Shown: in pieces, positions 31,719-55,317 of the stretch | How the letters are laid out: each line of letters begins with the position of its first letter | How positions within the stretch are numbered: the first letter of the stretch is position 1 | Assembly (NCBI GenBank): GCA_030765845.1 | Contig: JAVCDJ010000165.1 | Location: forward strand, 1-55,317 | Direction: 5' to 3' | DNA length: 55,317 nucleotides | From: Candidatus Stygibacter australis | GTDB lineage: Bacteria; Cloacimonadota; Cloacimonadia; Cloacimonadales; TCS61 | Made by a program: the position numbers and the translations under genes | Notes under the pieces: generated by a model | Seen by the model: only the letters and a program-made list of their open reading frames with translations | The model's database searches: none | Told to the model about the DNA's origin: nothing

Positions 31719-31801
31719 CCCGTACCTCCAAATTTATTTTTTTTTTCATTTTCATTCCTTTTAATAATTCACTTATACTTTTTTATAATAATTTTATGTG
31801 T

Positions 31802-31827
31802 GTCCGGACTGCCGCAGCAGCCCGGAC
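31802..31827 (-). terminator. Hairpin downstream of the 2,353-aa giant
   Basis: On the minus strand GTCCGGGCTGC pairs with GCAGTCCGGAC around TGCG (one G-T pair), starting 14 bp past the stop codon. The following sequence is AT-rich but lacks a clean U-tract, so termination may be partial and allow read-through into the next giant. Confidence 0.6.
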
Positions 31828-31841
31828 AATCTGGTGAATGA

Positions 31842-37800: not shown

Positions 37801-38903
37801 ACATTGTATTCAAGAGAATCGCCTTCAATATCTGAGAAGGCAAAATCAAGGTTTATGTGATTGTCCACTGTATCTTCATTGAAATTGAAATCGGCAATCG
37901 GATTTTCTACATAGGGTGGATCATTAACTGGGGTAACTTCAATTTGAACAATATCACTATCGATCAATCTGACAGGACTGTCATTGATTGTAAATGTGAT
38001 ATTTTCGATACCATTAAAATTTAGTTCAGGTGTGAAAGTGACATAAAAACCAACAATATCAACATCAACATGTACATTGCCACTAAAATTTAAAACAAGT
38101 TCAGTATTATCACTATCGTAAATATATTGCGTGAAATCCACTCCATAGACAGTGTCTTCTGGGAAAATGAAACTATCTGGTAAATTAATAATCGGCGGAT
38201 CGTTAACATTCTGAACCTGGATTTCCACAACAGCAATATTGGTTTGATACACACCATCAGTAGCATAATATTCAAAGAAATCGCTACCGAAATAATTTGG
38301 ATATGGTCGATAAGTAAATGAGCCGTTATCAATTAATGTAAGATAACCATGGCTAACATCTTGATCCAAAACTACCTCGAATTCATCAATATAAACCTGC
38401 GAAATGAAATCATTTATTAATACTCCTGATGCTGGCAATATAGTTAAAAGTGAATCTTCATAAGCTCCATAGAAATCATCTATTACATAAGGAATCGTGA
38501 GCAGGAAAGCACTATTATAGGAGCCAATAATAGTATTATCTGCAAACATTGAGCTTTCACGGCAATCCAGAACTTGATCACTATCTGCATCATAGACTTT
38601 ATAAGTAATGAGCTCAGTATCAGGTTCTGCATTACTTACGATAGTCATGTACCAGAGCTGAAACTGGTTGTATTCATTCCAATACGCAATAGCACGACAA
38701 TCTGTAACGCCACCTGGTCCAAAGGCAGCAACGATGTTATCTGGATTTGAGTTTGTGAAATATTGAGCCATGAATTCTACCTGAGAATAGACTTGCATAC
38801 TATACTGAGTACCAGGAATTATTTCCCAATCTGGTATTTCAGCAGACACATTCACGCACAAAATCATGATAACACTAAGAACAACAATTTTTAACATCTT
38901 CAT
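31842..38903 (-). CDS. Giant cadherin-like repeat surface protein (2,353 aa)
   Basis: The start at 38903 (MKMLKIVVLSVIMILCVNVSA) is chosen because GAGGGGG lies 9 bases upstream; a longer in-frame ATG at 38936 lacks a ribosome site. After the signal peptide comes the N-terminal module (PDWEIIPGTQYSMQVY ... NIVAAFGPGGVTDCRAIAYW) and about 19 cadherin-like VNDPP domains. Two related segments follow (LMTNWNWISFYVQPED..., MIADWNWIGYYPPTED...) sharing VKYQTQ/VKNQTQ and GDL motifs. Next is another CRAHGIW-type module and a sorting tail (LNQNYPNPFNPVTTISFEL ... WDGTDDNGNQVASGIYFYSL ... MVMIK). It is an exported, probably surface-held protein; ligands are unknown. Confidence 0.9.
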   Translation of the reverse strand: MKMLKIVVLSVIMILCVNVSAEIPDWEIIPGTQYSMQVYSQVEFMAQYFTNSNPDNIVAAFGPGGVTDCRAIAYWNEYNQFQLWYMTIVSNAEPDTELITYKVYDADSDQVLDCRESSMFADNTIIGSYNSAFLLTIPYVIDDFYGAYEDSLLTILPASGVLINDFISQVYIDEFEVVLDQDVSHGYLTLIDNGSFTYRPYPNYFGSDFFEYYATDGVYQTNIAVVEIQVQNVNDPPIINLPDSFIFPEDTVYGVDFTQYIYDSDNTELVLNFSGNVHVDVDIVGFYVTFTPELNFNGIENITFTINDSPVRLIDSDIVQIEVTPVNDPPYVENPIADFNFNEDTVDNHINLDFAFSDIEGDSLEYNVLDNINLNIVIDSLANVTISTFQENWNGSETVVFTAEDLEYTVYDTVFITVNPVNDAPEVILPLPDIELIEDFEDQITDLDDHFIDVDGDDLHFSANYDFNHVTIAIDENIMTISSVENWHGITDVTITAQDDYNRLIASDTFQITVLEENDPPILLVDLPDTYMNEDDDQIARNLNYYFVDYDNDPLDFSVDFESNDLNVWIDNDFLYFQPIADWYGTSTVTVTAADLFNDVSDSFDVIVTPVNDPPYVYLEIPDYILEEAFPAFDINLYDHFIDVDNDTLLFSASLNENNSIIVDIVGEIMTIASLPQWNGSVDVTVTAQDEFGRLTTNDTLTVQVNPVNDPPVLASPVDDQNVNEDFLPFDLDLSTHFSDPEDDPITYSVDFNDNQIGITVNDSILAISSVFNWYGTANVTVYASDNIPGNDPAVDQFDVIVQPVNDPPYVDVPIDDQYVDEDFEAIVIDLNQHFVDYDDSLSYDVEYDIDLINASIDQNTLTIYSRLNKSGDTEVSVTASDGNRVTVTDDFWVYIAPVNDEPVIALPETFEFYEDNILDVDFSQYVTDVDSDSLFLEATGNTNVLIDIVGLMVSFSNVENWNGQELVTFSISDEEFTNSDQVQVIVLPQADELTIILPQNFTFDEDESLPVNFAPYISNPDNFDIQLTYQNANYITVEINEFVVTFGAYPDWNGQEQITFEVSNINGPENSSDSVDVIVLPVNDPPTVTPIPDQYILEDSGTHSLDLDYYFDDVDGDILEYAASFENTAINVDIISNMLYFEPETNWNGTTSVTVTAQDGNDRVTVSDTFDVIVQPVNNPPEIVTYFNDVTKAEDFATFQIDFTGYFIDVDGDPLTYSVDFVSEEVNINLIGAVLELSAVSDWFGTTTIEVTASDEINRLSVSDQFDLVVTPVNDPPELIIPLEDLYLQEDFVAFDIDLDYHFNDVDQNLTYYVNYNEDDISASINQNFLNLNSLDNWYGTTTIEVIANDLQNRAVVTDTFDVFIDPVNDPPVVQVPLGDITIDEDTVSDPVNLDSNFFDIDGDPLVYSAQVSDPGGVIIIEDNIMTITAIENWFGSFDAYITADDQMGRATVTDTFHVLIMPVNDPPVIITPLEDLFFDEDFEPYQYDMAPNYADVDNSQLYFYADYISDHLTVTLNGSLMQINSVNDWTGDTEVVIHISDQVVRAAIADTFQVTVNPLNDPPYVAAPIPNQSKLEDFDTYSIDLDLYFDDIDGDVLSYEAVASDTIVTLDIQDNLLYFYSVPNLNGSVNITVTADDGINRLTAEDTFILTISAVNDPPMLLLPEEFTFDEDTILILDFIDMGYVFDVDTDLANLTLTSADGENVIVVINGTIVTFSADLNWFGTEVITFSLADESRRFVVTDTVNVVVNPVNDPPYFAFQIPDQQVQEGNLFNTIDLDYYVNDVDDEDETLTWQYSGNTDLLVDIDPVTHFAVVTAPDPDWNGDEDITFTVTDTYGENASDLVNFEIIPVNDAPVVLVPIPDQFVEINFSDFDIDLSPHFYDVDGDMLTYQVDFNDEQISVTELDGILTISSIINWNGVSEVIVTADDNVTRASVTDTFMVDVTYNITQTMSLMTNWNWISFYVQPEDYSLEYVFSDTLGENVNTVKYQTQTADYYPEIPGWFGDLEFIIDGGGYLVNVDDSVSVFSLTGNRIMSDTPIEMIADWNWIGYYPPTEDSLTSALNSILDNVHIVKNQTQSAEYFPEVGSGIWFGDLKIMAPGIGYKVQMTNPDILIYPLYPLITRDRNGHAQSMPDNSPAEWEILSGTSDNMILMLSAQYDNEIYEWADDRAMGIFDAEGICRAHGIWQESSYLEQGFWYFTIVGITTGDPLYIRLIDENNCESTCLDMISFQADTKIGTPFEPFQAAFYPVDEEDDQIVTANVLNQNYPNPFNPVTTISFELAAQDFVTINIFNLRGEKIKALVREPREAGSHSVIWDGTDDNGNQVASGIYFYSLNSSQFSATRKMVMIK

Positions 38904-38960
38904 TTTAATAAACCCCCTCGAACGAGTTATTTTCATCTGGTTTCATTTGGCTCTTCATTT

Positions 38961-38998: not shown

Positions 38999-41900
38999 TT
39001 ATTTTAAGATGATCAATTTACGGTGTAATGAAGTTTCACCAGATTTGAGATAATAGAAATACAAACCTGCAGAAACCGAATTACCAAACTTATCAGTCCC
39101 ATCCCACTCAATAGTATGGAATCCAGCTTCCTGAACCTCATTAACAATATCACACACCTTTTGTCCTCTTATATTATAGAGGGACAATTTGACATCTCCT
39201 GAAACGGGTAAACCATACCTTATGCAGGTATTAAAATCTCTCTCTCCTGATTTTAGATTAAATGGATTGGGGTAGTTCTGGTTTAATGAATAACTGGAAG
39301 GAACATCAAGATCTTCGTTGCCTTCAGTTATAAGGAATTCTACAGTAAGCAGATTATAAGGATCACCTAATTTGCTATCTGAATCAAAGATCAACTCATA
39401 ATCACTTATATATTCATTGCCTTCTGCATCATAATAAGCAAAGTGAAGAGGTTCATTTTCCAAATTACCAACGACAGTGAAATACCAGAAACCGCAATCT
39501 AATTGAGGTACATATTGCCAGTAACCATTGCTTCTACAATTACCATCAAGATCAAATACGGCACATGAAATATCATTCAGTGGCAGAATATTGCCAGAAG
39601 GAGTTGTCATCTGTGCCATTACGATCATATTGTTTTCAGTACCCGGCATTATTTCCCAGCGCCTGTTTAACGTATTGTCAGTGCTGTTATTTGAATCCTG
39701 ACTATCATCCCGGTGCTTCTGCCTTGTGAATATCTCAGGATAAGTTAAAGTATCAGGACTTGCTAATTTTACTTTGTAACCAACTCCTGCCTGCATTACG
39801 TCAAGATCTCCAAGCCAAATATTCCATTCTGGATAGTAATCAGCGGAATGCTGCTGATCTTTAACAGTTTCCACATTATCCAGGATAGTTGCCAGGGCAC
39901 TATTCAAACTGTCAGGAGTTTGTGGATAATAAGCTATCCAGTTCCAATCCTCAGTCATCTCAATTGGAGTAGCAACTGGAATAACAGAACCAATAACTGT
40001 GAAATCCTGGAATTCCTGGTTCATCTGAACCAGATAACCCTGACCATCGGTAACATATTCCAAATCACCCATCCAATCATTATATTCAGGAATATATTGA
40101 GCTGATTGGGTCTGATATTTAACTACATTAACATTATCATCTAAAGGACCAAAGACACCACTTAAGCTTGTATCTTCAGGATGAATATAGAATGATATCC
40201 AGTTCCAGTTTTCAATCAAATCAAGCACCTGATTACCACCCATAGCAACAAAGACCATGAAAGTATCACTAACTGCTGAACGATACATACCATCTTCAGC
40301 AGTTACCACTACCTCGGTTGTGCCATACCAGTTAAGTATTGAGGATATTGTCAGCCATTCCTGGTTGATCATTGCTGAAATCTGGAAAGTTTCATAATCT
40401 ACTATATAGGTTAATTCATTATCCACATCCTGGAAGTAATCACTAAGATCGACATCGAATGGATCAAAATCTTCTATAAGATAATAATCAGGTATTTCCT
40501 GAACTAACACGGGATCATCGTTAACTGAATTTACAATAACATTCACGCTATCAGTAGCAATTAACCTTGTCTGCATATCATCTACAGTGAAATAGATAAC
40601 TTCATTTCCATACCAGTTTTCTGGTACTGAGAAAGTTACTACCAGTTGATCGATACTGATATTGATATTAATATTACCTTCTGCAGTCAGTTCTAATTCC
40701 GGTGAATCGACATCGGAAATGTATGATGCAAAGTCTTCGATCAATTGCGAATCTTCATTAAAGGTGAAGAAATCTGGTAATACAATCTCCGGGGGATCAT
40801 TAACATTGATCACTTCGATTGTAACGGTAACTGCAGGAGAATTTACTTCTCCATCATAAGCCATATAATCAAAGAAATCATAACCAACAAATCCCGCATC
40901 AGGCGTATAAATAAATGCACCTGAAGCCTGCAGATCCAAATTACCGTGTTGTACATCACCGTTCGGTGCTAGAACAGCAGTTAATAACTCTGGATAATTA
41001 TCATCAGAATCGTTAACAAGAACACCATTTATCGCACCTACAACAAGAATCTCATCTTCCAGTACAGAATAGTTTTCTGGATAAGCAACTGGAGTTTGAT
41101 TATCGTAAGATGAAACACTCACTATAGTATCATCCGTATCTGTTCCACCCTGATCATCAGTTACGATTAGAGTAACATTGGTAGTTCCTGTTGGGAAGGT
41201 AGCAGAAACAATTTCACCTTCCATTGACTCTCTATTTCTGTCTCTGGATGCAATGCCGGTTTCCCAGCTCCACAACCAGGAAACTATCTCACCATCAAGA
41301 TCATATGAGCCGCTACCATCGAGCGTAATAACTGCAGTATCAGTAGTATCAGCAATCCCATTATAAGGGTCACCAGCATCAGCTACAGGATTATCATTAA
41401 CAGAATTGATTGTAATATAAGCATAAGTAATATCTGAATAAACCTGACCATCAAAGGCAACATAAGTAAATTGATCACTTCCGAAATAATTCAATTGAGA
41501 AGTATATTCAAATGAACCATCAGAATTTAAACTAATTGAACCATACGTAGTGCCTTCATCCAATATTGCGGTTAGTATTTCTGGATAACCGTCATCACTG
41601 TCATTAGCAAGAACACCCTGAGCAGAAAGCACTGTGAGAACAACATCTTCATCAGTTTCATATTGATCCATCTCGGTAACAGGTATCTGATTATTATATG
41701 CAGCTATTCCCACCAGGGCTGTATCTGTATCAATTGCACCTTCTGAATCAGTTATTGTAAGAGTTACTATTGTAGTATTAACTGGGAAGCTTGCAGAAAC
41801 AATTTCACCATTAGCGGATCCTCCAGACCATGTCCATAGGTAACTAACAATGGAATTTTCAGCATCAAAACTTCCTGAAGCATCCAAAGTGATCACTGCG

Positions 41901-44900
41901 GAATCAGTCTCATCGGCCTGGGCATTATAGGGACCTCCAGCATCAGCTACAGGTTCGTCATTAATCGAATTTATTGAAATCGTAACTAGTGTTGATGTTG
42001 AAATCACCTGTCCATCGTAAGCAACATAGGTAAATGAATCAGAACCATAGTAATTACTCATTGGAATATAAGTAAATGAACCATCAGAATTTAAACTTAT
42101 TGAACCATAAATAGTGCTGTCAGCCAATATTGCTGTTAGTATTTCAGGGTAACCATCATCTGTATCATTAGCTAAAACTCCCTGAGCAGTATCAGCAATG
42201 AGAATTGTGTCTTCATCAATATTGTAATTATCAGGTAAAGCTACAGGGATCTGGTTATCGTATTGAGCAACTCCAACGTAGGTGCTATCAGTATCGGAAT
42301 CACCACTATCATCGGTTACTGTTAAAGTGACAGTCGTAGTTCCTAATGGGAATACTGCTTCCAGAATCATTCCAGTAGCTACATTATTATCATCCCATGT
42401 CCACTGATAAAGCACTATTGACCCATCAATGTCATCGCTCTCACTCGCGTCGAGCGTAATTGTAGCATATCCCGTGTTATCTGCCTGAGTTTGATAAGGT
42501 CCTCCAGCTTCGGCAACTGGTAGATCGTTTACAGATTCTACATAGATTGTTACCTGCACCACATTAGAAAAGGTTTGACCATCAAATAAATAATATCTGA
42601 ACATGTCTGTTCCATAATAATTGCTATCAGGGATGTAAGTGAATGCTCCATCCCATCCATCAATTTCATAAACCAGGGTACCATGAGTAGTACTATCAGC
42701 TAAGATCGCAACTAAACGACCAGGATATCCATCATCCGTATCATTGACCATTATACCTGTTGAAGAAGTAACAACAAGATTTTGATCTTCTAAAGTATAG
42801 AACGAATCAGCTACAGCAACTGGTGTAATATTAATATAATCTGAAATTCCTACATAACTTGAGTCTCTATCTGTTGCACCATTATTATCCGTAACGGTAA
42901 GATATACTGTTGTTGGTCCTACAGGGAATGATGCTGTAGCATTAACACCAGTAATTGATAGAGTATCATTCCATGACCACAGGTAAGAAATTATTTCACC
43001 ATCAAGATCATAAGAAGCAGAAGCATCAAGAGTAACTTCTGCAAATCCTGAAAGATCTGCCTGTCCTGGATAAGGTCCATCTGCATCAGCTACCGGGGCA
43101 TCATTTACAGCAGTAATATTAATTAAGACTAATGCTTCTTCAGAATAATCAAGACCATCAAAGGCTATGTAACGGAATCTATCCTGACCATTGAAATTCA
43201 TAACAGGTATATAACTAAATGATCCATCAGAATTGAATTCAAGGCTACCGTGTATTACAGAATCAGTCAGGACAGCCGTCAGAGAATCAGGCCAGCCACC
43301 TGGAACTGTATCAATATCATTTGCCAGAACACCATTTTCTGAAATAACAAGTAGTTGAGTGTCTTCTGCAATTGAATAATTATCACCTATAGCGACTGGT
43401 GGCTCATTAGTCATAGATATGATTTCAACCGTGAAATCAGCTGAACCAATACCATCATCATCATCAGTAACAACAAGAGTCATATTATGAATTCCAACAT
43501 CAAAGGTATAGGTAAATACTGCTGTTTCAGATATGATATTATCATTTAATAACCATTGATAGGAAACGATCTCACCATCAAAATCATAGGATTCTGATCC
43601 ATCTAATGCAACATCTGCCATTCCAGATAAATCAGCCTGAGCTATATAAGGACCTCCTGGAACAGCTACTGGTAACATATTTGTATAGGCATTAATCGTG
43701 AGATATAATGTATCTCCTGGAGCTGAATAAGTGTATTCTTGAACAAAGCACATGAAGTCAGCACTTTCATCCCAGACTGAGAAATAGATAATCTCTGAAT
43801 AATCACCGAGTATTTCGAAAGTTGTAAGGCCTTGAGTTCCATTATTGATTACTTCACCTTCACCACGAGGAATACCATTGAGATCAAATACACCCACCAT
43901 ATCACCCGAAGCTGCAGGATAATCATCAATATACACGGTACACACCGCAGTAGTATAATCATCCCAGATATTCGGATTTATATACCAGGGATAATCTGGA
44001 AGATCTGGTCTTGCATATCTTGTAGCAGCAATGGGCAATTCATCAGGAGGATAACCAATATCGTACCCGGGATTTGTATATGTGCTAAAGGCAACACTGA
44101 GTACTTCATCTACACTGGCATCCCAGACGGCAAAACGAACCTGTTCGATAGTTTCACCCTGAATATTCATTGTTACATGGGCACTGATCTCGCGATTTCT
44201 TCCATCATCTATGTGATAAACACTTGCAACTGCTCTACACTGGTTACCCACAAAAGCACCTACTTCATCTCCAATTGCTGCAGGTTCTTCATCAATTGTA
44301 ACTATTCCATAAGCTATTGTACTATTTGTGTAAGTAACAATATCCCATGGTTTGGGGAAAATCTGTGATGGTTCTGCCTGTGCTCCAACAGTAACAATAG
44401 CTTCATCAGAATCTGTTGCTCCATAATTATCGGTAACAGTAAGCTGAACATTATAAATACCTATCGGGAATACAACAGAAACGAATTCACCAATGGCACT
44501 AATACGCGCTCCATTAAATGAAGATGCATTGATTTGAAGTTCGTTAGGTGGATAACCAATATCTCCACCAGGATCAGTCATATAAGTATTACTTACAGAA
44601 TATACCTGGTCTGTACTGCTATCCCAAACAGCAAATTGAACTTGTTCAACTTCTTCACCCTGAATATTCAGAGTTACTAGAGAAGTTAAATCTCTCCGAG
44701 TTTTTGAGTTTCTTTTTCTACTGTTATCCAATGTTATATCAGCTACACCTCGACATTCATTACCAACAAAAGCAGCAACCTGATCGCCCATTCCGGCCGG
44801 TTCTCCATCAATGGTTACGATACCGTAAGCAATAGTACTGTTAGTATAAACTACAGGTTCCCAAGGTCTTGGGAAAACAACGACTCCGCCGCCATCCCAG

Positions 44901-47900
44901 TTCCAATAGTAACTGACAATAGTTCCATCAGTATCATAAGATCCCGATCCATCAAGGGTAACTTCTGCATATCCATCTTGAGCCTGTTCAAAATAATCTT
45001 CACCTGCATCTGCTACAGGACTGAGATTTTCTGCAATCACACTAACTGTTGTTACGTCGGTAGCTGTATCTCCATCATTATCAGTAACTGTTAATGTAAC
45101 TTCATAGTCTCCAGGTAGAAAATCATAACTTGGAAATTCACCATATATGCAGGTTTCTTCTGTTGATTCTGTATACGCTGCTATCGGTAGAAGATTGGGA
45201 GGATAACCAATATCATAACCTGGATTGGTCATTGTAGTATAATAAACCGAAATTACTTCAGCTTCACTAACATCGTAAACTGCAAAGTGAACCAATTCCA
45301 CTGATTCTCCCTGAATATTCAAACTCACTATCGAATTTCTACTATTATCGGTTACAAAACCAATACCCCTGCATTCATTACTTACGAATGCTCCCACTTC
45401 ATCACCTGGAGAAGCTGGTTCTCCATCTATTGTAACTTCACCATATGCAACTGTTGTATTTGTATAATTAACTATATTCCAAGGTCTTGGGAAAGCAGTT
45501 CTTACTAATGATGTCTTACTAAATCTTGAATTTGTAATAACTGCTATGGGTAATAGATCTGGTGGAAGACCAATATCATTTCCAGGACTGGTTTGTGTGG
45601 AATAGCTCACATTATATACTTGATCACTACTCTGATCCCAGACTGCAAAATGAACTGTTTCTACGGTTTCACCCTGGATATTCATTGTTATAATAGAATT
45701 ACGAGAATTATCTACAACAACCCCAATCCCTCTACATTCGTTACTTACAAAGGCACCAACTTCATCACCTGGGGATGCAGGTTCACCATCTATGGTTACT
45801 TCACCATAAGCCACGGTGCTGTTTGTGTAGAAAACTATATCCCAAGGTCTTGGGATATTGCCTGAACTACCTGGTGTACCACCCCAACACCATTCATAAC
45901 TTACGATTTCACCATCAATATCATAACTTCCGGATCCATCGAAATTAACTGTTGCCACTCCCGTCTCCGTAGAAGCAATCTCTTCATAAGGACCACCGGC
46001 AACGGCAATTGGTGGATTATTATATTCTGTTACAGTTACTGTAGTTAAATCTGTATCAGTGGCACCTCGGTCATCAGTAACAGTAAGAGTTACGAAGTAA
46101 TTACCTACTGGATAATAAACCAACGGATTTTCACCATATACGCAATTATAATTAATCTCTGTAACTGCTGCAATTGGTAACAAATCAGGAGGCAGACCAA
46201 TATCATTACCTGGATTAGTCTGAGTGGAATAATTAACTGTTAAAATTGCATCTTCACTTGCATCATAAACTGCAAAATTAACCGTTTCAATCGTTTCACC
46301 CTGAATATTCAGCGTTGCTATTGACGTTCCTTCAACCATAGCTATATTGCCAACTCCACGGCATTCACCATTTATAAACGCACCAACCTCATCATCTAAA
46401 GTTGCATTTTGTCCATCAATAGTGACTCTTCCATAAGCTACAGTACTATTTGTATAATAAACTGGCTCCCAAGGTCTTGGGAAATTCCTGCTACGACTAT
46501 TACCTAGAGACGTTCTATTTGAGGTAGCTGCTATCGGTAATAGATTCGGAGGATATCCCAGATCTCCACCAGGATTACTTTGAGTTGAATAGATAACACC
46601 ATATACAGCATCTGCACTTTGGTCATAAACTGCAAAGTTCACAGTTTCAATCGTTTCACCCTGGATATTAAAGGTCACAATTGCCTCTGTTCTATTAAGT
46701 GTCACAAAACCGACTCCCCGGCATTCATCATCAGCAAATGCACATACTTCGTCTCCGATTTCTGCTGAAACTCCATCAATTGTAACTCTTCCGTAAGTAA
46801 CTGTGCTATTAGTATAATTCATTACATTCCAGGGACGAGGGAATACGTAGCCATACGAACCAGTTGTCGATATCGCATTTATTGGTAGAAAATCTGGGGG
46901 ATAACCTATATCATTACCCGGATTAGTTTGAGTATAATATGATACAGACCAAACCTGATTTTCACTATAATCGTAAACAGCAAAGTTTACTGTCTCTTCA
47001 ATTTCTCCCTGGATATTAAAGGTTGAATATGAACTATTATTATCAACAAAAACTGATCCAACGGCTCTACATTCACCTTGTACAAAAGCACCTACTTCAT
47101 CGCGAATTGTGGCATTTTCCCCATCAATTGTAACACGAGAATAAGCAATAGTACTATTTGTGTAATTTACAACATTCCATGGACGCGGGAAGATGGTACT
47201 ACCATCACCAGCCCAGCACCATTCATAACTTACAATTGATCCATCCAGATCATATGATCCGCTACCATCAAGCTGAACACCTGCTACTCCACCTTCCTGA
47301 GCCTCGGCTTCATAAGGGCCATCAGCATCAGCTACAGGTGGATAATTATAATCAGTGATTGTTACTGTAGTTTGATCAGTTGCAGTTGCTCCATCATCAT
47401 CAGTCACAGTCAAAGTCACTTCATAAGTACCTGTTGGGAAGAAGACATCAACATTCTCACCATATACACAGTTCAATGTTTCATTTGGGACCTCAGTGGA
47501 TGCAGCAATTGGCAATAAATAGGGTGGATAGCCAATATCATGTCCTGGATCAGTCATTGTTGTATATATTACCTGTAATACTTCATCTTCACTACTATCC
47601 CAGACCGCAAAATTGACAATCTCAACTACTTCACCTTGAATGTTTAGACTCACTATTGAAGTTCTTGCAACATCAGTCACAACACCATTTCCCCTACATT
47701 CACCATTAACAAAAGCACCTACTTCGTCTCCAGGAGATGCAGGAATTCCATTGATTGTCACCTCTCCATAGGCTACGGTACTATTTGTATAATTCACTAC
47801 ATTCCATGGACGCGGGAATATTGTCCGATTAATTGATCCTGAAGCAGCAATTGGTAGAAGATCCGGTGGATAACCAATATTACCACCCGGATTTGTGTAA

Positions 47901-50900
47901 GTAGCAAATGTAACACCAATCACCTCTCCCACACTTAAATCCCAAACTGCAAAATTGACTACTTCAACCGATTCACCTTGAATATTCATAGTAACAATCG
48001 ACTGACCACCATTATCTACTACATTTCCAATTGCTCTACATTCATCTTCAACAAAAGCACCAACTTCATCGCCAGGAGATGCAGGGATTCCATCGATTGT
48101 AACCTCACCATAAGCAACAGTGCTATTAGTGTAATTTACAACATTCCAGGGGCGTGGGAAGACTTGATACCCAGGTGTATTACCAACTGAATATCCTGCT
48201 AATGGTAATAAATCTGGTGGATATCCAATATCATTTCCAGGATCTGTTATTGTGAAAAATGAGACCATACAAATCTCATCTTCACTCACATCATAAACTG
48301 CAAAATGTACTATTTCTGGTTCTTCTCCCTGAATATTCATTGTCACCATGCCATCACTATTAATTATACTTACATATCCCAAACCTCGGCATTCTCCATT
48401 TATAAATGCTCCTACCTCATCATATTCGGCTGCATTTTCACCATCAATAGTTACAATACCATAGGCTATAGTACTATTAGAATATACTTCTGGTGACCAT
48501 GGTCTTGGATAGTATTCCGAACCTTGACCATACCAGCACCATTCCCAACTGACTATTTCTCCATCAAGATCATAAGATCCACTTCCATCAAGACCGATTT
48601 CACCTAATCCATTTATTTCTGCTTCTTCCAGATATGGACCATCAGCATCCGCTACAGGTTCATAGTTGAATTCTGTAATTATTACTGTTGTTGTTTCACT
48701 ATCTGTGGCTCCATCATCATCTGTGACAGTAAGGGTTACTTCATATTCACCAATTGGGAATATCACATCAAGGGTTTCACCACTGAAACAGTTGGCAAGC
48801 TCCTGAAAAACTTCTGTTGCTGCTGCTATAGGTAATAGGTCTGGTGGATAACCAATATCATTTCCAGGATTTGTCATCGTTGTGTAAGAAACATCTAAGA
48901 CTGTATCTGCACTATAATCATATACTGCAAAGGATACTGTCTCTGCTAACTCACCCTGGATATTAAGACTGCTTATTGATTGACCGGAGAGCAGGGATAT
49001 ATCTCCTACTCCTCGACATTCACTTCCCACAAATGCTCCTACTTGATCTTCTTCTGTTGCCAGTTCGCCATCTATTGTTACGTTACAATATGCCACGGTA
49101 CTATTAGTATAATTGACCACATTCCAAGGACGTGGGAAACTTTCTCTTGAAAGAGAGAATTTGCTGCTTCTTCCACTGATCGCATTAATAGGTAAAAGAT
49201 CTGGCGGATAACCAATATTTCCACCTGGAGCCGTAAGGGTAATATAGGCGACGCTATAGACTTCATCCATACTTGCATCATAAACAGCAAATTGTACTGT
49301 TTCAATGCTTTCTCCCTGAATGTTCATTGTAGATATAGTCATGCCTTCATAAATAGCAATATTTCCTATACTTCTACACTCTCCATCCACAAATGCACCT
49401 ACTTCATCATTAACAGAGGCAGAATTTCCATCTATCGTTACCTGGCAATAAGCTACTGTACTATTTGTATAATTCACTACATTCCAGGGACGTGGGAAGA
49501 TCTCTACTTCCTGACCGATACCTGAATAAGCATAGATCGGTAATTCTGCTGGCGGATAACCAATATCTCCACCTGGATTAGTTGAGGTATAATACGTTAC
49601 ATTGCATATTGTACTCTCACTTATATCATATACTGCAAAATGTACGGTCTCTACTTCTTCACCCTGAATATTGAGCGTTACTAAAGCTTCAGATCCTTCT
49701 CGACGCACAAAACCTACTCCACGGCATTCTTCACCTACAAAGGCTCCTACTTCATCATCATCCATAGCTGCAAGTCCATCTATGCGTACTTCACCATAAC
49801 AGATCGTACTATTACTATAGATCTCCGGTAGCCATGGACGTGAATAGTATAATCCACCTTCTCCAATCCAGCACCATTCCCAGCTTACTATCTCACCATC
49901 TACATCATGAGATCCACTTCCATCAAGATTTACTGTTCCAAGTTCGCTCTCTGGATCAGCTACTTCTTCATAAGGTCCGCCGGCATCTGCTACTGGTGCT
50001 TCATTATATTCCAGAACGGTTACGGTTGTTGTTTCACTATCTGTGGCGCCATCATCATCTGTTACTGTCAATGTTACTTCATATTCACCAATTGGGAATA
50101 TCACATCAAGGGTTTCACCACTGAAACAGTTGGCAAGCTCCTGAACTACTTCCGTTGCTGCTGCTATTGGTAACAGATCTGGTGGATAACCTATATCATT
50201 TCCGGGATTAGTCATTGTCGTGTAAGATACATTTATGACGGCATCTGCACTATAATCATATACGGCAAAGGATACTGTCTCTGCTGACTCACCCTGAATA
50301 TTAAGACTGCTGATCGATTGACCTGAAAGGAGTGAGATATCTCCGACTCCTCGGCATTCACTTCCTACAAATGCTCCTACTTGATCTTCTTCTGTTGCCA
50401 GTTCGCCATCTATTGTTACATTACAATATGCTACTGTACTATTAGTATAATTGACTACATTCCACGGAAGTGGGAAGTCTTCTCTTAGTGTGAAAATGCC
50501 TCGACTGCTGCTGGCTGCTACTGGTAATAAATTCGGTGGATAACCGATATCATTGCCCGGATTCGTCAAGGTACTGTAGGATACTCCATATACGGAATTA
50601 GCGCTTAGATCATAAACGGCAAAGTTTACGGTCTCAACGCTCTCGCCCTGAATAGTTACTGTAGATATTGCATCTGATCCACTCATCACTACATTGCCAA
50701 CTCCACGACATTCACTATCTACAAATACACCTACTTCATCACCGGCTGCTGCTGCTGAACCATTGATAGTTACATCGCAATACGCTACCGTACTGTTGGT
50801 GTATGTTACCATATTCCAGGGACGTGGGAATACATCGGGTCCTGTACCTCCATTACTTAGTGCTGCTATTGGCAACATGTTTGGAGGATAGCCTATGTCT

Positions 50901-53900
50901 CCACCGGGATTCGTCAAGGTACTGTAGGATACTCCATATACGGAATTAGCGCTTAGATCATAAACGGCAAAGTTTACGGTCTCAACACTCTCGCCCTGAA
51001 TATTAAGGCTGCTGATCGTCTCGCGACTATTATCAACAACTACACCTACTCCTCGACATTCGTTTTCTACAAAGGCTCCTACTTCATCACCGAATGAAGC
51101 AGGACTGCCATCTATCGTTACAAGGCAATATGCCACTGTACTATTTGTATAATTCACTACATCCCAGGGACGCGGGAAGATCTCGGTTTCCTGACCTTCA
51201 CTTGAATAAGCATAGATCGGTATTTCTGCTGGTGGATAACCTATATCTCCACCTGGATTAGTTAAGGTATAATAAGTTACTGTACATATTGTACTCTCAC
51301 TTATATCATATACGGCAAAATGTACGGTCTCTACTTCTTCTCCCTGAATATTAAGCGTTACTAAAGCTTCAGATCCTTCTCGACGAACATAACCTACTCC
51401 ACGGCATTCTTCACCTACAAAGGCTCCTACTTCATCATCATCCATAGCTGCAAGTCCATCTATGCGTACTTCACCATAACAGATCGTACTATTACTATAG
51501 ATCTCCGGTAACCATGGACGTGAATAGTAAACTGCACCTTCTCCAATCCAGCACCATTCCCAGCTTACTATCTCACCATCTACATCATAGGATCCTGTCC
51601 CGTCTAATCCTACAGAGGCAAATGTTCCACCTTCCTGGGTTGATTCCTCATAAGGTCCACTGGCATCTGCTACTGGTGCTTCATTATATTCCAGAACGGT
51701 TACAGTTGTTATTTCACTATCTGTGGCTCCATCATCATCCGTTACTGTCAATGTTACTTCATATTCACCAATTGGGAATATCACATCAAGGGTTTCACCA
51801 CTGAAACAGTTGGTAAGCTCCTGAACTACTTCGGTTGCTGCTGCTATAGGTAACAGATCTGGTGGATAACCTATATCATTTCCAGGATTAGTCATTGTTG
51901 TATAAGATACATTTATGACGGCATCTGCACTATAATCATACACTGCAAAGGATACTGTCTCTGCTGACTCACCCTGAATATTAAGACTGCTGATTGATTG
52001 ACCGGAAAGGAGTGAGATATCTCCGACTCCTCGGCATTCACTTCCTACAAATGCTCCTACTTGATCTTCTTCTGTTGCCATCTCGCCATCTATTGTTACA
52101 TTACAATATGCTACTGTACTATTAGTATAATTGACTACATTCCACGGAAGTGGGAAGTCTTCTCTTAAGGTGAAACTGCCTCGACTGCTGCTTGCTGCTA
52201 CTGGTAATAAATTCGGTGGATAACCGATATCATTGCCGGGATTAGTCAAGGTACTGTAGGATACTCCATATACGGAATTTGCGCTTAGGTCATAAACGGC
52301 AAAGTTCACTGTCTCAACGCTCTCGCCCTGAATAGTTACTGTAGAGATTGCATCTGATCCACTTATCACTACATTGCCAACTCCACGACATTCACTATCT
52401 ACAAATACACCTACTTCATCACCGGCTGCTGCTGCTGAACCATTGATAGTTACATCGCAATACGCTACCGTACTGTTGGTGTATGTTACCATATTCCAGG
52501 GACGTGGGAATACATCGGGTCCTGTACCTCCATTACTTAGTGCTGCTATTGGCAACATGTTTGGAGGATAGCCTATGTCTCCACCGGGATTCGTCAAGGT
52601 ACTGTAGGATACTCCATATACGGAATTAGCGCTTAGATCATAAACGGCAAAGTTTACGGTCTCAACACTCTCGCCCTGAATATTAAGGCTGCTGATCGTC
52701 TCGCGACTATTATCAACAACTACACCTACTCCTCGACATTCGTTTTCTACAAAGGCTCCTACTTCATCACCGAATGAAGCAGGACTGCCATCTATCGTTA
52801 CAAGGCAATATGCCACTGTACTATTTGTATAATTCACTACATCCCAGGGACGCGGGAAGATCTCGGTTTCCTGACCTTCACTTGAATAAGCATAGATCGG
52901 TATTTCTGCTGGTGGATAACCTATATCTCCACCTGGATTAGTTAAGGTATAATAAGTTACTGTACATATTGTACTCTCACTTATATCATATACGGCAAAA
53001 TGTACGGTCTCTACTTCTTCTCCCTGAATATTAAGCGTTACTAAAGCTTCAGATCCTTCTCGACGAACATAACCTACTCCACGGCATTCTTCACCTACAA
53101 AGGCTCCTACTTCATCATCATCCATAGCTGCAAGTCCATCTATGCGTACTTCACCATAACAGATCGTACTATTACTATAGATCTCTGGTAACCATGGACG
53201 TGAATAGTAAACTGCACCTTCACCAATCCAACACCATTCCCAGCTTACTATCTCACCATCTACATCATAGGATCCTGTCCCGTCTAATCCTACAGAGGCA
53301 AATGTTCCACCTTCCTCGGCTGATTCTTCATAAGGTCCGCTGGCATCTGCTACCGGGGGATTATTATATTCTGTGACGGTTACGGTTGTTGTTTCACTAT
53401 CTGTAGCTCCACCATCATCCGTTACTGTCAATGTTATTTCATATTCTCCGATCGGGAAATATACACTTAGCATTTCTCCCGTCAAACAGCTTTCTGTTGT
53501 TACTTCAGTTGTTGCTGCAATAGGTAACAGATCCGGAGGATAACCCAGATCTCCGCCTGGAATTGTCTGGGTCGTGTAAGATACATTTAAGACTGCATCT
53601 GCACTATTATCATATACTGCAAAGGATACTGTCTCAGGATTATCTCCCTGAATATTCAAGGTTGTTATTGCCATTGTACCGTCATTAGTTACGGTTCCTA
53701 CTCCACGGCACTCTCCATCTACAAAGGTTCCTACTTCGTCGCCTGTTGCTGCTAATTCTCCGTCTATGGTTACTTCACAATATGCTACTGTGCTATTTGT
53801 ATAGGTTACAAAATTCCAGGGACGTGGGAAGTCTTCTCTTAGTGTGAAACTGCCTCGACTACTGCTTGCTGATATTGGTAATAAATCCGGTGGATAACCT

Positions 53901-55317
53901 ATATCTCCGCCTGGAATTGTCTGGGTCGTGTAAGATACATTTAAGACCGCATCTGCACTATTATCATATACTGCAAATTCTACTGTCTCGGAATTATCTC
54001 CCTGGATATTGAGCGAACAGATCGCCTGACTGCCACTTATAGTTACGGTTCCAATTCCACGGCATTCGCTATTTACAAAAGTTCCTACTTCATCTCCGGC
54101 TTCTGCTGGTGATCCATTGATAGTTACTTCGCAATATGCTATAGTACTGTTGGTGTATGTTACCATATCCCATGGGCGTGGGAATGAAACTGTTCCCGTT
54201 CCGCCACTGCTGGTTGCTGCTATTGGCAACATGTTTGGTGGATAACCTAGATCTCCACCAGGAATTGTCTGGGTGGTATAGGATACTCCATATATCGTCG
54301 ATGCACTTGCATCATATACATTAAATTCTACTGTCTCGGGATTATCTCCCTGGATATTTATCGAACAGATCGCCTGACTGCCGTTTACAGTTACGGTTCC
54401 AACTCCACGGCACTCGCTATCTACAAAGGTTCCTACTTCATCACCGGCTTCTGCTGGTGATCCATTGATAGTTACTTCGCAATAAGCTACTGTACTGTTG
54501 GTGTATGTTACCATATCCCAAGGACGTGGAAAGATCGTTAGCTCTTCTCCACCGCCGCCGCCTGTACTTACGGCATAGATCGGAAGCAGGTCTGGAGGAT
54601 AACCTAGATCATTTCCTGGTGAGGTTTGAGTATTAAATGTTACTGTACATAACTCGCCAGCACTTATATCATATACTGCAAAATTCACGGTCTCTACTTC
54701 TTCTCCCTGAATGTTCAAGGTAGTTATTGCTGTTGTGCCGTCATTCACTACGTAGCCAATACCACGGCATTCTTCTCCTACAAAAGCTCCTACTTCATCA
54801 TCTGTAGCTGCTAATTCACCATCAATGGTTACTTCTCCATAAGCTACGGTGCTATTGGTGTAATATACTACATCCCAGGGTCTCGGGAAGCTTAATCCAC
54901 CTTCTCCGATCCAGCACCATTCCCAGCTTACTATCTCACCATCTACATCATAAGATTCTGTTCCGTCAAGTCCCACAAATGCTCCTGTTCCGCCTTCAAG
55001 AACTGATTCTTCATAAGGTCCGCCGGTATCGGCTACCGGGGGATTATTATATTCTGTGACGGTTACGGTGGTTGTTTCACTATCTGTAGCTCCACCATCA
55101 TCCGTTACTGTTAATGTTATTTCATATTCTCCGATCGGGAAATATACACTTAGCATTTCTCCCGTCAAACAGCTTTCTGTTGTTATTTCGGTTGTTGCTG
55201 CAATAGGTAACAGATCCGGAGGATAACCCAGATCTCCGCCTGGAATTGTCTGGGTCGTGTAAGATACATTTAAGACTGCATCTGCACTATTATCATATAC
55301 TGCAAAGGATACTGTCT
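38999..55317 (-). CDS. Giant surface protein with PKD domains interrupted by PRPW/YTNST modules (partial, N-terminus outside window)
   Basis: The frame is open to the window edge (at least 5,439 residues), so its start lies beyond. Eight PKD domains (GGPYEE ... LDGSGSYDxDGEIVSWEWCW / FPIGEYEVTLTVTDDDGATDSETTTVTV) are each split after WEWCW. The insert is 1-4 modules of about 115 residues (FPRPWNVVNYTNSTVAYCNVTIDG ... GDEVGAFV.xECRGVG ... LNIQGE.xETVxFAVYD ... PGNDIGYPPDLLPIAA). Two free modules follow. Then come five intact PKD domains alternating with five VCBS/cadherin-like domains (GVLANDxDDGYPE), two VNDxP domains, NWNWISFY repeats, a final module and a sorting tail (LNQNYPNPFNLKSG ... 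WDGTDKFGNSVSAGLYFYYL). It is probably an exported adhesin; the ligand is unknown. Confidence 0.92.
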   Translation of the reverse strand, partial: TVSFAVYDNSADAVLNVSYTTQTIPGGDLGYPPDLLPIAATTEITTESCLTGEMLSVYFPIGEYEITLTVTDDGGATDSETTTVTVTEYNNPPVADTGGPYEESVLEGGTGAFVGLDGTESYDVDGEIVSWEWCWIGEGGLSFPRPWDVVYYTNSTVAYGEVTIDGELAATDDEVGAFVGEECRGIGYVVNDGTTAITTLNIQGEEVETVNFAVYDISAGELCTVTFNTQTSPGNDLGYPPDLLPIYAVSTGGGGGEELTIFPRPWDMVTYTNSTVAYCEVTINGSPAEAGDEVGTFVDSECRGVGTVTVNGSQAICSINIQGDNPETVEFNVYDASASTIYGVSYTTQTIPGGDLGYPPNMLPIAATSSGGTGTVSFPRPWDMVTYTNSTIAYCEVTINGSPAEAGDEVGTFVNSECRGIGTVTISGSQAICSLNIQGDNSETVEFAVYDNSADAVLNVSYTTQTIPGGDIGYPPDLLPISASSSRGSFTLREDFPRPWNFVTYTNSTVAYCEVTIDGELAATGDEVGTFVDGECRGVGTVTNDGTMAITTLNIQGDNPETVSFAVYDNSADAVLNVSYTTQTIPGGDLGYPPDLLPIAATTEVTTESCLTGEMLSVYFPIGEYEITLTVTDDGGATDSETTTVTVTEYNNPPVADASGPYEESAEEGGTFASVGLDGTGSYDVDGEIVSWEWCWIGEGAVYYSRPWLPEIYSNSTICYGEVRIDGLAAMDDDEVGAFVGEECRGVGYVRREGSEALVTLNIQGEEVETVHFAVYDISESTICTVTYYTLTNPGGDIGYPPAEIPIYAYSSEGQETEIFPRPWDVVNYTNSTVAYCLVTIDGSPASFGDEVGAFVENECRGVGVVVDNSRETISSLNIQGESVETVNFAVYDLSANSVYGVSYSTLTNPGGDIGYPPNMLPIAALSNGGTGPDVFPRPWNMVTYTNSTVAYCDVTINGSAAAAGDEVGVFVDSECRGVGNVVISGSDAISTVTIQGESVETVNFAVYDLSANSVYGVSYSTLTNPGNDIGYPPNLLPVAASSSRGSFTLREDFPLPWNVVNYTNSTVAYCNVTIDGEMATEEDQVGAFVGSECRGVGDISLLSGQSISSLNIQGESAETVSFAVYDYSADAVINVSYTTMTNPGNDIGYPPDLLPIAAATEVVQELTNCFSGETLDVIFPIGEYEVTLTVTDDDGATDSEITTVTVLEYNEAPVADASGPYEESTQEGGTFASVGLDGTGSYDVDGEIVSWEWCWIGEGAVYYSRPWLPEIYSNSTICYGEVRIDGLAAMDDDEVGAFVGEECRGVGYVRREGSEALVTLNIQGEEVETVHFAVYDISESTICTVTYYTLTNPGGDIGYPPAEIPIYAYSSEGQETEIFPRPWDVVNYTNSTVAYCLVTIDGSPASFGDEVGAFVENECRGVGVVVDNSRETISSLNIQGESVETVNFAVYDLSANSVYGVSYSTLTNPGGDIGYPPNMLPIAALSNGGTGPDVFPRPWNMVTYTNSTVAYCDVTINGSAAAAGDEVGVFVDSECRGVGNVVMSGSDAISTVTIQGESVETVNFAVYDLSANSVYGVSYSTLTNPGNDIGYPPNLLPVAASSSRGIFTLREDFPLPWNVVNYTNSTVAYCNVTIDGELATEEDQVGAFVGSECRGVGDISLLSGQSISSLNIQGESAETVSFAVYDYSADAVINVSYTTMTNPGNDIGYPPDLLPIAAATEVVQELANCFSGETLDVIFPIGEYEVTLTVTDDDGATDSETTTVTVLEYNEAPVADAGGPYEEVADPESELGTVNLDGSGSHDVDGEIVSWEWCWIGEGGLYYSRPWLPEIYSNSTICYGEVRIDGLAAMDDDEVGAFVGEECRGVGFVRREGSEALVTLNIQGEEVETVHFAVYDISESTICNVTYYTSTNPGGDIGYPPAELPIYAYSGIGQEVEIFPRPWNVVNYTNSTVAYCQVTIDGNSASVNDEVGAFVDGECRSIGNIAIYEGMTISTMNIQGESIETVQFAVYDASMDEVYSVAYITLTAPGGNIGYPPDLLPINAISGRSSKFSLSRESFPRPWNVVNYTNSTVAYCNVTIDGELATEEDQVGAFVGSECRGVGDISLLSGQSISSLNIQGELAETVSFAVYDYSADTVLDVSYTTMTNPGNDIGYPPDLLPIAAATEVFQELANCFSGETLDVIFPIGEYEVTLTVTDDDGATDSETTTVIITEFNYEPVADADGPYLEEAEINGLGEIGLDGSGSYDLDGEIVSWEWCWYGQGSEYYPRPWSPEVYSNSTIAYGIVTIDGENAAEYDEVGAFINGECRGLGYVSIINSDGMVTMNIQGEEPEIVHFAVYDVSEDEICMVSFFTITDPGNDIGYPPDLLPLAGYSVGNTPGYQVFPRPWNVVNYTNSTVAYGEVTIDGIPASPGDEVGAFVEDECRAIGNVVDNGGQSIVTMNIQGESVEVVNFAVWDLSVGEVIGVTFATYTNPGGNIGYPPDLLPIAASGSINRTIFPRPWNVVNYTNSTVAYGEVTINGIPASPGDEVGAFVNGECRGNGVVTDVARTSIVSLNIQGEVVEIVNFAVWDSSEDEVLQVIYTTMTDPGHDIGYPPYLLPIAASTEVPNETLNCVYGENVDVFFPTGTYEVTLTVTDDDGATATDQTTVTITDYNYPPVADADGPYEAEAQEGGVAGVQLDGSGSYDLDGSIVSYEWCWAGDGSTIFPRPWNVVNYTNSTIAYSRVTIDGENATIRDEVGAFVQGECRAVGSVFVDNNSSYSTFNIQGEIEETVNFAVYDYSENQVWSVSYYTQTNPGNDIGYPPDFLPINAISTTGSYGYVFPRPWNVMNYTNSTVTYGRVTIDGVSAEIGDEVCAFADDECRGVGFVTLNRTEAIVTFNIQGETIETVNFAVYDQSADAVYGVIYSTQSNPGGDLGYPPNLLPIAATSNRTSLGNSRSRNFPRPWEPVYYTNSTVAYGRVTIDGQNATLDDEVGAFINGECRGVGNIAMVEGTSIATLNIQGETIETVNFAVYDASEDAILTVNYSTQTNPGNDIGLPPDLLPIAAVTEINYNCVYGENPLVYYPVGNYFVTLTVTDDRGATDTDLTTVTVTEYNNPPIAVAGGPYEEIASTETGVATVNFDGSGSYDIDGEIVSYEWCWGGTPGSSGNIPRPWDIVFYTNSTVAYGEVTIDGEPASPGDEVGAFVSNECRGIGVVVDNSRNSIITMNIQGETVETVHFAVWDQSSDQVYNVSYSTQTSPGNDIGLPPDLLPIAVITNSRFSKTSLVRTAFPRPWNIVNYTNTTVAYGEVTIDGEPASPGDEVGAFVSNECRGIGFVTDNSRNSIVSLNIQGESVELVHFAVYDVSEAEVISVYYTTMTNPGYDIGYPPNLLPIAAYTESTEETCIYGEFPSYDFLPGDYEVTLTVTDNDGDTATDVTTVSVIAENLSPVADAGEDYFEQAQDGYAEVTLDGSGSYDTDGTIVSYYWNWDGGGVVVFPRPWEPVVYTNSTIAYGIVTIDGEPAGMGDQVAAFVGNECRGVADITLDNSRKRNSKTRRDLTSLVTLNIQGEEVEQVQFAVWDSSTDQVYSVSNTYMTDPGGDIGYPPNELQINASSFNGARISAIGEFVSVVFPIGIYNVQLTVTDNYGATDSDEAIVTVGAQAEPSQIFPKPWDIVTYTNSTIAYGIVTIDEEPAAIGDEVGAFVGNQCRAVASVYHIDDGRNREISAHVTMNIQGETIEQVRFAVWDASVDEVLSVAFSTYTNPGYDIGYPPDELPIAATRYARPDLPDYPWYINPNIWDDYTTAVCTVYIDDYPAASGDMVGVFDLNGIPRGEGEVINNGTQGLTTFEILGDYSEIIYFSVWDESADFMCFVQEYTYSAPGDTLYLTINAYTNMLPVAVPGGPYIAQADLSGMADVALDGSESYDFDGEIVSYQWLLNDNIISETAVFTYTFDVGIHNMTLVVTDDDDGIGSADFTVEIISMTNEPPVAIGDNYSIAEDTQLLVISENGVLANDIDTVPGGWPDSLTAVLTDSVIHGSLEFNSDGSFSYIPVMNFNGQDRFRYIAFDGLDYSEEALVLINITAVNDAPVADADGPYPGQADLSGFAEVTLDASASYDLDGEIISYLWSWNDTLSITGVNATASFPVGPTTVYLTVTDNNGATDRDSSYVGISDYINITPVAVADSFYTLEDQNLVVTSSTGIMVNDTDDGYPGRLVAILADSTTHGTLVYEIDGWDGAFTYIPDSNYYGTDMFRYYLFDGQTFSNVVQVTIYVESVNDLPVAEAGGPYQTQADNTGYATITLDASESDDIDGSIVLYQWTWDDNNVATGMILEAVFPLGTTTVTLTVTDDSGDSDTDSTYVGVAQYDNQIPVALPDNYNIDEDTILIADTAQGVLANDTDDGYPEILTAILADSTIYGSISLNSDGSFTYIPMSNYYGSDSFTYVAYDGQVISTSTLVTISINSINDEPVADAGGPYNAQADETDSAVITLDASGSFDAENSIVSYLWTWSGGSANGEIVSASFPVNTTIVTLTITDSEGAIDTDTALVGIAAYNNQIPVTEMDQYETDEDVVLTVLSAQGVLANDSDDGYPEILTAILDEGTTYGSISLNSDGSFEYTSQLNYFGSDQFTYVAFDGQVYSDITYAYITINSVNDNPVADAGDPYNGIADTTDTAVITLDGSGSYDLDGEIVSWLWSWETGIASRDRNRESMEGEIVSATFPTGTTNVTLIVTDDQGGTDTDDTIVSVSSYDNQTPVAYPENYSVLEDEILVVGAINGVLVNDSDDNYPELLTAVLAPNGDVQHGNLDLQASGAFIYTPDAGFVGYDFFDYMAYDGEVNSPAVTVTIEVINVNDPPEIVLPDFFTFNEDSQLIEDFASYISDVDSPELELTAEGNININISIDQLVVTFSVPENWYGNEVIYFTVDDMQTRLIATDSVNVIVNSVNDDPVLVQEIPDYYLIEDFDPFDVDLSDYFQDVDNELTYIVDYETFQISAMINQEWLTISSILNWYGTTEVVVTAEDGMYRSAVSDTFMVFVAMGGNQVLDLIENWNWISFYIHPEDTSLSGVFGPLDDNVNVVKYQTQSAQYIPEYNDWMGDLEYVTDGQGYLVQMNQEFQDFTVIGSVIPVATPIEMTEDWNWIAYYPQTPDSLNSALATILDNVETVKDQQHSADYYPEWNIWLGDLDVMQAGVGYKVKLASPDTLTYPEIFTRQKHRDDSQDSNNSTDNTLNRRWEIMPGTENNMIVMAQMTTPSGNILPLNDISCAVFDLDGNCRSNGYWQYVPQLDCGFWYFTVVGNLENEPLHFAYYDAEGNEYISDYELIFDSDSKLGDPYNLLTVEFLITEGNEDLDVPSSYSLNQNYPNPFNLKSGERDFNTCIRYGLPVSGDVKLSLYNIRGQKVCDIVNEVQEAGFHTIEWDGTDKFGNSVSAGLYFYYLKSGETSLHRKLIILK
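50040..53390. repeat. 1,680-bp in-frame tandem duplication inside the giant gene
   Basis: Two consecutive units of 1,680 bp (560 codons) each encode one interrupted PKD domain with four inserted modules. The segment 50685-51505 is identical to 52365-53185 over about 821 bp as read, whereas the rest of the unit carries scattered differences. The next unit upstream of these in the gene (about 53390-55060) has a 1,683-bp period and is more divergent. The array continues past the window edge. Confidence 0.85.

Follow-up and report, generated by a model that had tools for sequence, protein, structure and literature searches.

A giant cell-surface protein of Candidatus Cloacimonadota in which successive PKD domains are split by graded numbers of tandem modules

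Split Ig-like domains occur in the RTX adhesins FrhA of Vibrio cholerae and MpIBP of Marinomonas primoryensis, where they keep a ligand-binding domain away from the axis of the protein (PMC10865825). Giant Ig-repeat adhesins are represented by that of Mobiluncus mulieris, a protein of 7651 aa with its domains joined end to end (PMC10619420). A third comparable system is the cellulosome-like scaffoldin described from Candidatus Stygibacter, which contains tandem cohesins and CBMs (PMC8542988). Here we describe a gene in an uncultured lake bacterium of the Candidatus Cloacimonadota that encodes a giant cell-surface protein. Its C-terminal part lies in the window, i.e. the whole stretch of 55,317 nucleotides that was analysed. 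The genome of the window (G000) was compared with those of another species in its genus (G001, GenBank JAIPGP) and of another genus in its family (G015, JAIPGO), both of them MAGs of Cloacimonadota that carry the label Tobar13.5m. The translated ORF was segmented by hand and with profiles of a recurrent module and of both halves of the PKD domain, resulting in the following features:

38999-55315, minus strand: giant ORF of 5438 aa, the C-terminal part of a larger gene; 5' end open at the contig end
55058-55315, minus strand: block 0, a module end (55181-55315) and a C-terminal PKD half (55058-55162), cut by the contig end
53375-55048, minus strand: block 1, PKD split by four modules (insert 53498-54889); half-PKD cysteines present
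51695-53365, minus strand: block 2, PKD split by four modules (insert 51827-53206); cysteines 695 and 1170 at both lips
50015-51685, minus strand: block 3, PKD split by four modules (insert 50147-51526); DNA 97.6% identical to block 2
48677-50005, minus strand: block 4, PKD split by three modules (insert 48809-49846); its orthologue is the first complete block of G015:C29
47357-48667, minus strand: block 5, PKD split by three modules (insert 47489-48511); three also in the G001 and G015 orthologues
46031-47347, minus strand: block 6, PKD split by three modules (insert 46154-47191); three also in the G001 and G015 orthologues
45035-46021, minus strand: block 7, PKD split by two modules (insert 45161-45856); two also in the G001 and G015 orthologues
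44387-45028, minus strand: block 8, PKD split by one module (insert 44519-44875), without the cysteine pair; one also in the G001 and G015 orthologues
43703-44359, minus strand: two in-line modules, not nested, between PKD 8 and PKD 9 (44021-44359 and a divergent one at 43703-43990)
41111-43681, minus strand: five unsplit PKDs (43418-43681, 42842-43105, 42266-42529, 41702-41962 and 41111-41398)
39008-39274, minus strand: C-terminal T9SS type A sorting domain (TIGR04183, 30.1 bits, cut-off 23)

Written from the N- to the C-terminus, with n and c standing for the N- and C-terminal PKD halves and M for the module, profile search and direct reading give the order [M]c-nMMMMc-nMMMMc-nMMMMc-nMMMc-nMMMc-nMMMc-nMMc-nMc-MM-(nc)x5. 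The split site in the eight PKDs lies after W-x-W, and the domain resumes before the G-E...FPxGxY half. An initial annotation of this DNA had counted 4, 4, 4, 3, 3, 3, 2 and 1 modules followed by five unsplit PKDs, which both approaches reproduce exactly, and had placed the break at the same point in each of the eight, between the WEWCW side and the C-terminal half, as direct reading bears out. Its range of 43680-55317 does hold the eight split blocks, but most of the five unsplit PKDs fall outside it; likewise its counts are right, but it overlooked block 0 at the contig end and the two in-line modules after PKD 8. A Pfam scan showed that Big_9/cadherin-like domains alternate with the five unsplit PKDs.

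The inserted module is an all-beta unit of about 112 residues with the consensus FPRPW..V.YTNSTVAYG.VTIDG..A..GDEVGAFV..ECRG.G...LNIQGE..E.V.FAVYD.S....V.Y.T.TNPG.DIGYPP.LLPIA. One copy scanned alone gave no Pfam match beyond noise, and no relatives were detected by sequence in NCBIfam, among PDB sequences or in the PLSDB plasmids; by structure, the one hint is a resemblance to an uncharacterised protein of a marine virus (A0A0F7L4H0, TMt 0.63). The cysteine of the ECRG motif is invariant in all aligned copies, though many copies have no second cysteine with which it could pair. The module is present in 57 of the 125 Cloacimonadota genomes searched. The loci fetched were mostly short flanks around the best matches and might not reveal a rare, weak instance; within them, this gene of G000, G001 and G015 is the only one with nested modules. 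A second giant gene of the same three genomes (G000:C217, G001:C29 and G015:C138) has 8-12 copies of the module arrayed linearly at a period of 113 residues, none of them nested in a PKD, and so offers a natural control for nesting. A contig binned as Desulfobacterales (JAOZRQ010000290.1) also encodes a module with 52% identity to the query, reflecting either horizontal transfer or a misbinned contig.

Several lines of evidence indicate, with high confidence, that the PKDs are nested, each being one fold with modules inserted in it. When the insert was removed from four blocks, the joined halves matched the PKD_4 profile (PF18911) with 43.6-46.5 bits against a cut-off of 27, covering positions 1-85, 3-84, 1-85 and 2-84 of 85. 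These scores exceed that of an unsplit PKD from the same protein (39.9 bits), while the halves alone reach 17.6 and 25.9 bits. An AlphaFold2 model of block 8, made with 73 unaltered rows, has a pLDDT of 91.6 and a pTM of 0.75, and the module and both halves have confidently placed strands. In Foldseek searches with this model, solved PKDs of 85-95 residues align over about 215-219 query columns, i.e. across the insert; the matches include the collagenase G PKDs (TMt 0.76-0.79, with 4aqo at 0.79; probability 1.00), 4tn9 (TMt 0.77) and AAVR (about 0.66). The split domain is hence a PKD both by its full-length match to PF18911 and by the beta-sandwich fold of the block 8 model. The four-module block 2, modelled with 18 rows, gave a moderate pLDDT of 79 and a pTM of 0.36, a model that does not show the shape of the loop; a weaker result of this kind is to be expected for beads on flexible linkers with that number of rows. 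The Foldseek search with this model returned generic multi-Ig chains only. The splice of the halves, the structural comparison and the cysteine co-variation described below all uphold the earlier proposal that the PKD folds with the modules looped out, and the modelling of one block in particular yielded the single PKD fold that it had predicted.

Across the 19 complete blocks from the three genomes, cysteines in the N-terminal half (WEWCW) and just before the C-terminal half (NC..GE) are either both present (14 blocks) or both absent (5 blocks), with no mixed case (Fisher p 8.6e-5, uncorrected for shared ancestry). Given that this pair lies at the two lips of the insert, a disulphide between the PKD halves probably pins the neck of the loop in most blocks, the exceptions being the five without the pair. 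Furthermore, since an insert starts and finishes at the same PKD, inserts of 2-4 modules would form closed loops rather than free branches. Accordingly, the earlier picture of a comb with side branches is right in placing the modules off the axis, but the multi-module inserts have to close at the PKD from which they started.

The staircase of module numbers is, with confidence nearly as high as that for nesting, a conserved feature. The corresponding loci read [M]c-3-3-3-2-1-MM-five PKDs in G015:C29 and [>=3]-3-3-2-1-MM-five PKDs in G001:C101, so that the counts expected in homologues recur as 3-3-3-2-1 in the former and 3-3-2-1 in the latter, orthologous block by block with the steps of the window. 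In the module tree most copies group by position across genera, an example being module 2 of window block 5 with module 2 of G001 block 1 and module 2 of G015 block 2, and the PKD halves pair diagonally, with 84-90% identity to G001 and 73-86% to G015. Orthologous blocks show a pS of 0.61-0.77, which is near saturation, together with a pN/pS of 0.15-0.32, showing that they are kept as protein by purifying selection. A monotone order of the eight counts would arise by chance in 2 of 1120 orderings; however, the steps are not independent because blocks 2-4 are recent duplicates, and the block-by-block orthology in two other genomes is the better evidence.

Two alternatives would remove the nesting or the staircase altogether. 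Any repeat array can be cut in two phases, and between the module strings c runs directly into n over about 85 aa, so that each C-terminal half together with the N-terminal half of the next block could be a single, perhaps circularly permuted, domain in a plain string of domains and modules. Yet this pairing yields no full-length PKD_4 match, n precedes c in the protein's unsplit PKDs, and the AlphaFold2 and Foldseek results place n together with c across the module. At its start the array has an N-terminal half (in G001:C98) and at its end a C-terminal half, as nesting requires, whereas the linear reading leaves an unmatched n at its start and an unmatched c at its end. Moreover, the cysteines that agree in every n-c pair disagree at c-n junctions, for instance that of blocks 7 and 8 in all three genomes and the last one of G001:C98. 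The linear reading, which the initial annotation had itself named as the alternative, is thereby largely refuted and very improbable. More improbable still is that the staircase stems from repeats collapsed or expanded during assembly. All three assemblies do break inside the gene, and the number of blocks in the window could reflect repeat assembly, blocks 2 and 3 being 97.6% identical; but the orthologous 3-3-2-1 steps are common to the three assemblies, and the neighbouring PKDs of these blocks are 57-70% identical in amino acids, i.e. diverged enough to be assembled reliably. For these conserved steps an assembly artefact was rejected.

Pieces of the N-terminal part of the gene, one per genome, comprise 840 aa at the end of G000:C37, 5164 aa in G001:C98 and 494 aa at the end of G015:C50; those of G001:C98 and G000:C37 have a signal-like start as read by eye. 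The upstream giant ORF adjoining the N-terminal piece is 62% identical over 1,772 residues between G000 and G001, the two genomes compared for it, and the 2364-residue ORF downstream of the C-terminal pieces is common to G000, G001 and G015 (64-65% identity). From the single-copy N-terminal pieces, the matching upstream ORF and the common downstream ORF, we infer that the N- and C-terminal pieces are one gene broken in all three assemblies, from each of which its middle is absent. The ends of G001:C98 and G001:C101 do not overlap, leaving a gap of undefined size between these contigs. In G001:C98 there are four units of about 945 residues with one module each, the later ones being 49, 38 and 35% identical to the first. 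By eye these units contain cadherin-like and cohesin-like parts, and they constitute a second, larger level of repetition. They are followed by in-line modules, an unsplit PKD and then split PKDs, such that the number of modules per PKD rises as 0, 2, 3 and at least 1. Since the number in G001 rises before it falls, the module profile is probably a spindle, with its rising half known from this one genome, and not a distal brush. The earlier suggestion of a protein bushier at its cell-distal N-terminal end, made from a window without the N-terminus, is accordingly not supported.

Its companion suggestion that the C-terminus is the cell-side end agrees with the C-terminal sorting domain, whose TIGR04183 score lies above the cut-off, and with the presence in the genome of SprA (TIGR04189, above cut-off). 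Together these mark the protein as a type IX substrate and point to type IX export and C-terminal anchoring. After the giant gene the window contains two more giant ORFs (23991-38936; 2364 and 2575 aa) with Big_9/cadherin-like repeats; a C-terminal type IX sorting-type domain is clear in the first of them and weak in the second. Beyond both lies a gene with an OmpA domain (21691-23982).

In light of these observations, the best explanation of the whole, which we regard as fairly likely, is a type IX-secreted giant with an axis of split PKDs and looped modules for lateral display. The gene product would be a very large surface protein from a bacterium of the Cloacimonadota resembling Candidatus Stygibacter, with a chain of PKD and cadherin-like beta-sandwiches, evident from the sequence, that could serve as its load-bearing thread. 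In the central stretch, the loop between the W-x-W strand and the following strand would hold 1-4 modules while the PKD folds as one, a step strongly supported by the models. The multi-module inserts would then stand off the axis as closed loops, with the neck pinned by a disulphide in most blocks, and their copy number would drop stepwise toward the cell-side end and rise from the N-terminal side, as in the one orthologue. In this manner a module that is adhesive and possibly binds glycans might be displayed laterally in many copies, outside the pulling path and without lengthening the axis. Adhesive display as such is a function that the context mildly favours. Only tentatively do we propose the more specific picture of a conserved spindle of disulphide-pinned closed rings with 1-4 adhesive modules each, in which the position along the fibre sets the size of the loop and the bulk is programmed by the gene and shielded from force.

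Two further readings bear on function rather than on architecture. The array may have grown through whole-block duplication in its middle, for which there is partial evidence: the PKDs of adjacent blocks are 94% identical between blocks 2 and 3, 87% between blocks 3 and 4 and down to 57% between blocks 7 and 8, i.e. decreasing toward the C-terminal edge; block 4 resembles blocks 2 and 3 less one module; the modules flanking both edges of the array group together in the tree (99/96); and the two-module block of G001 has been homogenised. Judged from these comparisons, the 4-4-4 part of the window is younger than the conserved steps. Growth by duplication in the middle would make the outer blocks the older ones with fewer modules, and the gradient may be a simple record of it, young in the middle and old at the edges. 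It is a serious though somewhat doubtful possibility that the gradient has no function at all, unequal crossing-over having amplified and homogenised the middle and left old short blocks at the edges. Against this, 3-3-2-1 is the same in two genera despite near-saturated synonymous differences, where neutral turnover would be expected to blur the counts, and crossing-over accounts for the origin of the gradient while remaining compatible with a function. The other reading, which we consider unlikely, is that the protein is not an adhesin but a scaffoldin, part of the proposed cellulosome-like complex of Candidatus Stygibacter, with looped modules binding polymer and cohesin-like domains of the N-terminal half docking enzymes. 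In its favour, 39 dockerin and 20 cohesin matches lie above cut-off in the genome, a Stygibacter scaffoldin of 3,755 aa has been reported (PMC8542988) and its likely counterpart on G000:C10 has the same module, and the N-terminal half of the G001 orthologue contains a cohesin-like stretch; however, this stretch scores 20.7 bits, just below the cut-off of 24.1, and the part of the gene in the window has no cohesin match. The G000:C10 ORF, probably the counterpart of that scaffoldin, has 3779 aa, many cohesin matches and three clear module copies near its C-terminus. Returning to lateral display, the reported polymer-binding complex, the dockerin and cohesin matches, the sub-threshold cohesin of the N-terminal half and the recurrence of the module in other giant proteins make adhesion to a polysaccharide or protein polymer the leading guess for what the module binds.

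The literature searches recovered no described adhesin with such a graded insertion, in agreement with what had been supposed from the sequence alone, and no serial, graded, multi-module splitting of PKDs kept in orthologues; nor did the open-access set searched yield a paper on domain insertion in a PKD. Single split Ig-like domains in RTX adhesins (PMC10865825) are nevertheless known, so that the principle of a split domain is not new, whereas its serial, graded, multi-module form looks new. Bacterial surface proteins have been seen to grow in length by end-to-end duplication, and the present case adds growth in girth by duplication within a domain. Should the loops prove closed and pinned, bearing of load (the PKD axis) would be separated from display (the modules). 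As a case of repeat-array evolution, one gene in three genomes reveals which parts are old (the edges) and which are young (the centre).

Compared with the systems described above, the protein shares with PKD_4 (PF18911) and the collagenase G PKD (4aqo) the complete profile and the fold once the insert is set aside, but is split where ordinary PKDs are continuous. Like the giant Ig-repeat adhesins it is very long, has expanded by duplicating Ig-like domains and is probably stiffened by intramolecular cross-links, though none of those has been described with a tandem array nested inside each repeat (PMC10619420). With the Candidatus Stygibacter scaffoldin, probably from the same genus, it has in common that it is a giant, non-catalytic and C-terminally anchored protein in which the module and cohesin-like domains recur; that scaffoldin was described without the nested PKD blocks found here (PMC8542988). 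It is not an RTX adhesin, its C-terminus being a T9SS type A sorting domain and the Pfam matches of its C-terminal half including no RTX family. As in FrhA and MpIBP, a complete inserted domain interrupts an Ig-like domain, with ligand binding by the module here putative; but where those RTX adhesins have one or a few single ligand-binding domains inserted, at least eight consecutive PKDs are split in the present protein, by up to four tandem modules in graded number, with a likely disulphide at the neck and secretion by the type IX system.
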